Shown here: one piece after another, positions 10,893 through 11,104 of the stretch
How positions within the stretch are numbered: the first letter of the stretch is position 1
How the letters are laid out: every line of letters starts with the position of its first letter
DNA from: an uncultured Clostridium sp.
GTDB taxonomy: Bacteria > Bacillota > Clostridia > TANB77 > CAG-508
Assembly: GCA_945877035.1 (NCBI GenBank)
Contig: CAMCQH010000015.1
Location: forward strand, 1 to 37,577
Direction: 5' to 3'
Length of the DNA stretch: 37,577 nt
The notes under the pieces: generated by a model
Database searches by the model: none
The model's input: the letters and a program-made list of their open reading frames with translations, nothing else
Told to the model about the DNA's origin: nothing
Made by a program: the position numbers and the translations under genes

Positions 10893-11104
10893 CTAACTTG
10901 TATCCATTTCAAATACAAAAATAGCATTACTATCTTTTTTCAATATATGTTTTTTAAGTTCACTTAATAAACCTTTATTTTCTAAAAGGCTATTATCTTC
11001 TCTAGTACATAATTTATTTTTATTTAATAAAATACCTGTGTGTGTGTGTGTGTGTGTGTGTGTGTGTGTACAGTCTCAAGACTTACAGCGTGTTGATTTT
11101 TCAT
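10893..11104 (-). other. Phase-variable leader ORF upstream of the DGR target
   Basis: The ATG at 11104 follows GAGGGGAG by 12 nt and sits downstream of a good promoter. The frame reads MKNQHAVSLETV, then His-Thr repeats from a (CA)16 tract, then QVFY and a stop at 11024-11026: 26 residues in the present phase. With 15 or 18 CA units it would instead read on as GILLNKNKLCTRED...FVFEMDTS to a stop at 10893, about 69 residues. With 17 units it would stop after RYFIK. Two of three phases are thus closed. The open-phase tail looks protein-like but matches no family known to me. It may be a contingency switch or a decayed gene. Confidence 0.6.
11037..11068. repeat. (TG/CA)16 dinucleotide microsatellite
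   Basis: These are sixteen uninterrupted TG units on the plus strand (CA on minus). Perfect dinucleotide tracts of this length are uncommon in bacteria outside slippage-driven contingency loci. This one lies within the translated leader before the DGR target gene and 33 bp after its start codon. Confidence 0.97.

Follow-up and report, generated by a model that had tools for sequence, protein, structure and literature searches.

The (CA)16 tract in the genome of a gut bacterium, an uncultured Clostridium sp., most probably forms part of a phase-variable, ribosome-controlled transcription attenuator placed before a pilin-like gene, itself the target of a DGR. We analyzed a window, by which we mean the whole stretch of 37,577 nucleotides at positions 1 to 37,577 of contig CAMCQH010000015.1 (assembly GCA_945877035.1). 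Transcription from the promoter would yield an RNA in which a leader peptide containing the CA units comes first and is followed by an intrinsic terminator upstream of the target. Replication slippage would alter the number of CA units; differences in length are seen between viral copies of the family. In two of the three frames the ribosome would stop approximately 80-86 nt upstream of the hairpin, which would then form, and transcription would mostly end (OFF), the state to which the assembled 16 units would correspond. With 15, 18, … units, the third frame would take the ribosome across the 5′ arm to a stop in the 3′ arm, such that no hairpin would form and the target would be transcribed (ON). 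Separately, the DGR would diversify the C-terminal domain of the target protein. From the anatomy of the locus, its frames, the predicted hairpin and the recurrence of this arrangement in a family of loci, we infer transcription, termination, read-through and switching at the locus itself.

The tract, the leader frames and the hairpin

The tract occupies positions 11068-11037 of the minus strand, on which all elements of this locus lie, and it is real: TRF reported 16.5 TG units at 11037-11069. The only assembled length at this locus is 16 units, no second assembly of it having been found, and among CA tracts of at least 9 units it is the sole one in the 1.70-Mb assembly (~80% complete). The gene upstream of the leader is spoIIIAA. 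A promoter-like site of the form TTGACG-N18-TATAAT (11150-11179) matches the consensus at 11 of 12 positions; since the region has three such sites and its shuffled versions have 6.1 on average, this match alone means little, and it is the retention of the box at paralogous loci on contigs C3, C28 and C40 that stands beside it. The putative ribosome-binding site GAGGGGAG (11117-11124) and an ATG at 11104 follow, and the tract is immediately preceded by a conserved 5′ flank, AGTCTTGAGACTGTA (11069-11083), for which the family consensus is about (A/C)CTTGAGGCTGTA. With 16 units the leader ORF (11024-11104) encodes 26 aa and ends at a TAA at 11026-11024; with 17 units it likewise stops early; with 15 or 18 units it continues for 47 further codons (10893-11036) up to a TAG at 10895-10893. 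The original prediction, which had a promoter, a ribosome-binding site and an ATG opening a leader that runs into 16 CA units, and an open phase of about 69 residues at 15 or 18 units, is thus borne out in its positions, and its frame arithmetic proved right upon recomputation.

It made no mention of a hairpin between leader and target. Folding predicts one at 10939-10878 (−27.2 kcal/mol, z −6.7, none of 200 shuffled sequences being as stable), with 18 outer and 9 inner pairs and ending in a short run of U's, UUUUUGUG. A simple terminator scan of the region, one that requires three G-C pairs and a loop of 3-8 immediately within the stem, flagged no terminator, this hairpin included. The closed phases stop 86 and 82 nt upstream of the hairpin core, while the outer 3′ arm begins with the ON stop codon TAG; an open-phase ribosome must therefore cross the entire 5′ arm. 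Since the open-phase tail enters a terminator-like hairpin, the likely output of this phase is transcription of the target, and the 69-residue ORF that had been predicted is probably not the product. The target itself starts at an ATG at 10807, an amendment to the original prediction, and in all three phases this start follows the leader stop, so that the classical arrangement of a contingency gene is not found here.

Comparison of the leader with known RNA families brought up nothing beyond a eukaryotic family, matched below threshold and on the opposite strand. The segment CCTTGAGG was considered as a further hairpin and set aside, with 4 pairs only that, by eye, are not kept across variants.

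Recurrence of the architecture

The genome contains 32 matches to pilin-like N-termini, 27 of which were read by script, and a dinucleotide tract of at least 13 units precedes the gene at four of these 27. Taking the single best hairpin per locus, exactly these four have one of −24 kcal/mol or lower, at −131 to −56 before the start; at the other 23 (one of them with only ~80 nt of upstream sequence) the best hairpin is weaker than −15 kcal/mol or more than 190 nt upstream. The three paralogous tracts, (AG)13 on C28, (AG)15 on C3 and (AG)13 on C40, occupy the same place as the CA tract, and the leaders there consequently encode RE and not HT. With three of four tracts being (AG)n, it is the repeat that is kept, not its peptide. 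Contigs C3 and C28 have the hairpin of the window and C40 has a different one; the open frame ends at the same TAG as in the window on C3 and at a TAA just before the hairpin on C28. Assigned by hand from the frames, C3 would be ON, and C28 (assuming a TTG start), C40 and the window would be OFF.

Beyond this genome, we searched for the pattern TTG, six bases, T, A(CA)6. Of the genomes sampled, 32 of 97 from the genus contain it; for the order, the GTDB name of which we take to be TANB77, the figure is 128 of 385, spanning 29 of 48 genera. In a class-wide draw it was present in 9 of 18 genomes of this order and in none of 373 genomes of other orders. The reversed pattern was found in only one genome of the 97 (G014) and two of the 385 (G309, G315). 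Flanked tracts can be numerous, with 37 in G059 (a 1.6-Mb genome), 32 in G189 and 30 in G032, and the AG version occurs in 10 of the 97 genus genomes. Among 80 titles listed of at least 115 records, two name other groups (Maribacter and Bacillales) and the rest name Clostridia, Clostridium, Clostridiales or Eubacteriales, mostly uncultured; one named match, Candidatus Merdicola, is placed in Clostridia incertae sedis by NCBI. CA tracts of the length class of the window number 125 in the 97 genomes, 109 of them with the TTG-N6 5′ flank. Judged from this shared flank and from its being the only long CA tract in its assembly, the tract of the window is not a chance occurrence.

The 12-15 nt directly 5′ of the tract (11083-11069 in the window) are kept as DNA in leaders, in HsdS-like loci and in other genes, and the amino acids they encode vary. 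Because it is kept as DNA in unrelated genes, this flank may promote slippage or spread by recombination.

To describe what follows the tracts, we compiled a catalogue of 191 distinct loci (171 CA and 20 AG) after dropping those with less than 60 nt upstream or less than 150 nt downstream and duplicates by flank. It includes two loci assigned by title to other groups (L299, Maribacter, falling into neither class below, and L310, “Bacillales”, with a fused frame), and 26 of the 191 stem from records outside the titles listed. A few copy-rich genomes weigh heavily in the catalogue and many of its loci are paralogs, so that the counts that follow are not independent. A strong terminator, that is, a hairpin of −15 kcal/mol or lower that has a T run and lies no more than 200 nt beyond the tract, is predicted at 120 of the 191 loci; control windows from the same loci contained such a hairpin in 4 of 157, 10 of 173 and 5 of 185 cases. 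At 36 loci the tract is followed by a frame of at least 100 codons, and 35 belong to neither class, at least five of these showing hairpins of −11 to −15 kcal/mol. A pilin-like motif lies within 1.2 kb at 77 of the 120 terminator loci.

The frames at these 120 loci were compared with a strict pattern in which the stop of exactly one frame falls inside or past the hairpin, or precedes it by less than 10 nt, and those of the two others precede it by at least 20 nt. This pattern was seen at 99 loci (27% with shuffled pre-hairpin segments) and in 53 of 70 members of a non-redundant set, one of which has no open frame. The 21 departures comprise nine loci with two open frames and one closed, eight in which one closed stop falls at 10-19 nt, two in which both closed stops do, one with two open frames and one stop at 10-19 nt, and one with none open. 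As presently assembled, 71 of the 120 loci would be OFF, 27 ON and 6 intermediate, with 11 lacking an ATG and 5 ambiguous, all of these loci coming from assemblies in which several contigs break off near a tract and lengths close to a contig end may not be reliable; the OFF:ON ratio is roughly the 2:1 expected under random phase.

The 120 hairpins have 115 distinct sequences, with a GATAG/CTATC outer stem common to 45 and absent from 75. When 22 of 23 prepared hairpins of the GATAG kind were aligned, 3 of 14 pairs were changed on both sides and 1 of 308 cells was broken or gapped, the structure having been predicted from the same alignment.

Alternative readings and known systems

Several other explanations of these data were weighed. 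One is that the leader acts through translational coupling or protects the RNA against Rho-dependent polarity, with the intrinsic terminator playing no part. Stop and start codons do overlap in viral copies (L400 and L403, by eye) and at an (AG)11 locus on contig C2, and 10 of the 35 unclassified loci look coupled by a loose criterion. In the window, however, 85 nt separate the open-frame stop from the target start, a strong hairpin with a U run lies between them, and such hairpins are rare in control windows; we therefore consider coupling unlikely at this locus. Slightly less probable still is that the switch serves to make a functional small protein of 69 residues in the open phase. In its favor, the tract is followed by 47 open codons in one frame, and two paralogous tails share 56-59% identity over a 34-aa stretch. 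In G032, 6- and 12-nt indels change the length of the tails, yet 22 of 23 loci agree in which frame is longest, which means that indels there keep the frame and fits translation. Homologs of the tail, which the original prediction had named as a check on the open frame, came to light only inside its own genome (the two paralogous tails, with E values of 4e-6 and 2e-5, the second with an internal stop); a search of 93 relatives gave no significant one (best E 0.03), and neither Pfam nor NCBIfam matched it. Moreover, tails vary from species to species, the peptide encoded by the tract is HT at some loci and RE at others, and the open frame usually ends in, past or just before a terminator of non-conserved sequence.

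The two remaining explanations have even less in their favor. An ordinary, functionless microsatellite in an untranslated region would be hard to reconcile with a sole long CA tract in the assembly and with a position, flank, terminator and frame pattern that recur while paralogs use another repeat unit, and we hold it to be very improbable. The (HT)n peptide might also call to mind a histidine- or threonine-sensing attenuator of the his/thr leader type. Yet (RE)n takes the same place in paralogous leaders, leaving no codon run conserved for a sensed amino acid, the downstream genes are pilin-like rather than devoted to amino-acid biosynthesis, and the position of the ribosome would be set by frames and not by codon stalls, all of which leaves this explanation with next to no credibility.

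A phase-variable attenuator has parallels in better known systems. In the Escherichia coli pyrBI attenuator, a leader ribosome that reaches the terminator prevents its hairpin, the coupling depending on UTP supply; in the window a leader ribosome at the terminator would block the hairpin in the same manner, but repeat number, not UTP, would decide. In Haemophilus and Neisseria contingency genes, the reading frame changes when a short repeat slips. The 36 loci with a frame of at least 100 codons after the tract, including acyltransferase, HsdS and DNA-methylase frames, resemble these, whereas the gene regulated in the window is separate from the repeat ORF and its control point would be the terminator. 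In Bacillus subtilis the ribosomes lag behind RNA polymerase, a situation in which any antitermination by ribosomes would be less effective.

That ribosome-based control can still work in a Gram-positive is indicated by the pil loci of Streptococcus gallolyticus, where GCAGA repeats in the pil1 leader peptide switch expression by way of a premature terminator, as shown by genetics (Danne et al. 2014, PMC3894217). There, stops at least 28 nt upstream of the terminator gave a mixed, mostly low profile, and stops immediately upstream, inside or past it gave mostly high expression (PMC3894217). Every part of this description that can be read from sequence is present in the window: a promoter, ribosome-binding site and start codon of a short leader precede the gene, the leader ORF holds a tandem repeat with a unit that is not a multiple of 3, folding predicts an intrinsic terminator between leader and gene, and the OFF stops exceed the 28-nt minimum distance upstream of the hairpin, with the ON stop lying within its 3′ arm. 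As with pil1/pil3, a stem-loop terminator thus stands before a surface-protein gene and the position of the stop relative to it would set low versus high, and the two may well work in the same way.

There are also differences: a CA or AG unit of 2 nt versus the 5-nt GCAGA, unrelated leader and terminator sequences, a host among uncultured Clostridia, flanked tracts that reach 37 in one genome (G059) versus two loci reported for strain UCN34, and pilin-like products, one of them a DGR target, versus sortase pili. Also in contrast to pil1/pil3, the Clostridia family has a 5′ flank common to leaders, fused genes and phage genes. Given the differing sequences, units, host group and regulated proteins, we file the window as a separate variant of the pil1-type attenuator. 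The original prediction knew of no described example in which slippage-driven control and a DGR are paired. For the mechanism a precedent exists in S. gallolyticus (PMC3894217), the only case of repeat-controlled attenuation found among titles and abstract starts; for a DGR target behind a slippage switch, no description was found among the titles and abstract starts listed from the DGR and phase-variation literature.

These findings suggest that a mechanism shown in one streptococcus is an independent and widespread regulatory habit in another group. Assembled sequence alone would then predict, for the surface proteins of uncultured bacteria, their on or off state and the manner in which each would change it, so that metagenomic repeat counts could be read as expression states. 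Since the switch needs ribosomes that keep pace with RNA polymerase, it also offers a test of such coupling in Clostridia.

The DGR and possible further uses of the tract

The target gene (9374-10807) combines a prepilin-like N-terminus and an fn3-like region, both below the Pfam cut-off, with a C-terminal DUF6273 domain that contains the variable region (VR, 9383-9496). The 114-nt template region (TR, 8653-8766) has 33 adenines, and all 18 mismatches between VR and TR fall at TR adenines. Between the two lies an ORF (8826-9251) that we presume from its position to be Avd-like and that matches only phrog_30516 and phrog_13216, both of unknown function; an RT-2 RNA (Rfam RF03077, 8445-8644) and the reverse transcriptase (RT, 7342-8454; RVT_1, phrog_1423) complete the set. 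With an RT that adjoins the TR and with TR/VR substitutions at TR adenines only, the DGR in the window is genuine. In having an RT, such a TR/VR pair and an accessory ORF it is like other DGRs, and unlike them it has a target that would additionally stand behind a slippage switch, which makes the locus a putative on/off gate before a DGR-diversified surface protein.

We considered whether this pairing is the very point of the element. RT matches numbered 25 in 23 of 287 genomes, and 20 other RT regions were examined, several of them cut by contig ends, with the window's own and four further matches left out. A script detected an adenine-type TR/VR pair in 12 of the 20, and a CA tract with a leader hairpin in one. 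This one, L386 (G181:C49:1-7028, 1995), comes from another genus of the family and has a DGR-like RT, a CA12 leader, a hairpin and a pilin-like gene; on its short contig no adenine-type TR/VR pair satisfied the criterion, the looser look being confined to the six best pairs. With a tract in one of 20 RT regions, and with the switch preceding many pilin-like genes without a known DGR, the pairing is rare and looks mostly incidental. The slippage switch that had been predicted upstream of a hypermutated surface protein is itself well backed by the anatomy of the locus (tract, frames, hairpin and genuine DGR).

Two remote pilin-like genes on contigs C5 (L176) and C22 (L175) of the same genome, G000, hold VR-like copies of the window's TR that differ from it at 14 adenines and 2 other sites and at 18 adenines and 9 other sites, respectively; no tract was found before either gene. 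Elsewhere in the window, two arrays of 49-50-nt repeats (3338-3442 and 6093-6204) each have a similar-looking ORF nearby (3043-3282 on the minus strand and 6269-6709 on the plus strand), a layout that presumably resembles that of type III toxin-antitoxin systems; as the adjacent ORFs have no Pfam match, this assignment was not retained.

On a wider reading, to which we would give an even chance, a whole order of uncultured Clostridia, together with some IMG/VR viruses, shares a slippage cassette of approximately CTTGAGGCTGTA plus (CA)n or (AG)n that drives genome-wide random switching with three outputs: an attenuator before pilin-like proteins, a frameshift in genes for glycan or DNA modification, and stop-start coupling before phage genes. 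One of the attenuators would be stacked on a DGR, thereby multiplying on/off control by sequence diversity. As to the second output, ten of the 36 proteins fused to the tract were scanned and matched Acyl_transf_3 (two), a type I specificity domain (two), TupA, an N6/N4 methylase and MaoC, with one weak match to QueC and two without a family; in the assemblies, the tract leaves 11 of the 36 in frame. At L130, L255 and L146, CA tracts lie within type I specificity-subunit genes or before a DNA methylase frame. Phase-variable DNA methylation is accordingly possible in this order.

Translational coupling seems to link a tract of this kind to a prophage-like gene in the genome of the window: at L185 (G000:C2:68500-73500, reverse-complement position 2418), stop and start codons overlap as ATGA where the open frame of an (AG)11 leader meets a phage tail-fibre-like gene (phrog_2712). 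Viral contigs supplied 18 stretches, at least one of which (L401) is not family-like. At L400 and L403 the open-frame stop, examined by eye, overlaps the next start codon, and viral contigs such as these, like contig C2, present what looks like translational coupling before phage genes. Comparison of 150 nt upstream and up to 150 nt downstream of the tract further identified near-identical viral contigs that differ in the number of units, 16 versus 15 in one case (L400, L415) and 14, 12 and 11 in another (L403, L410, L412; 99-100% alike).
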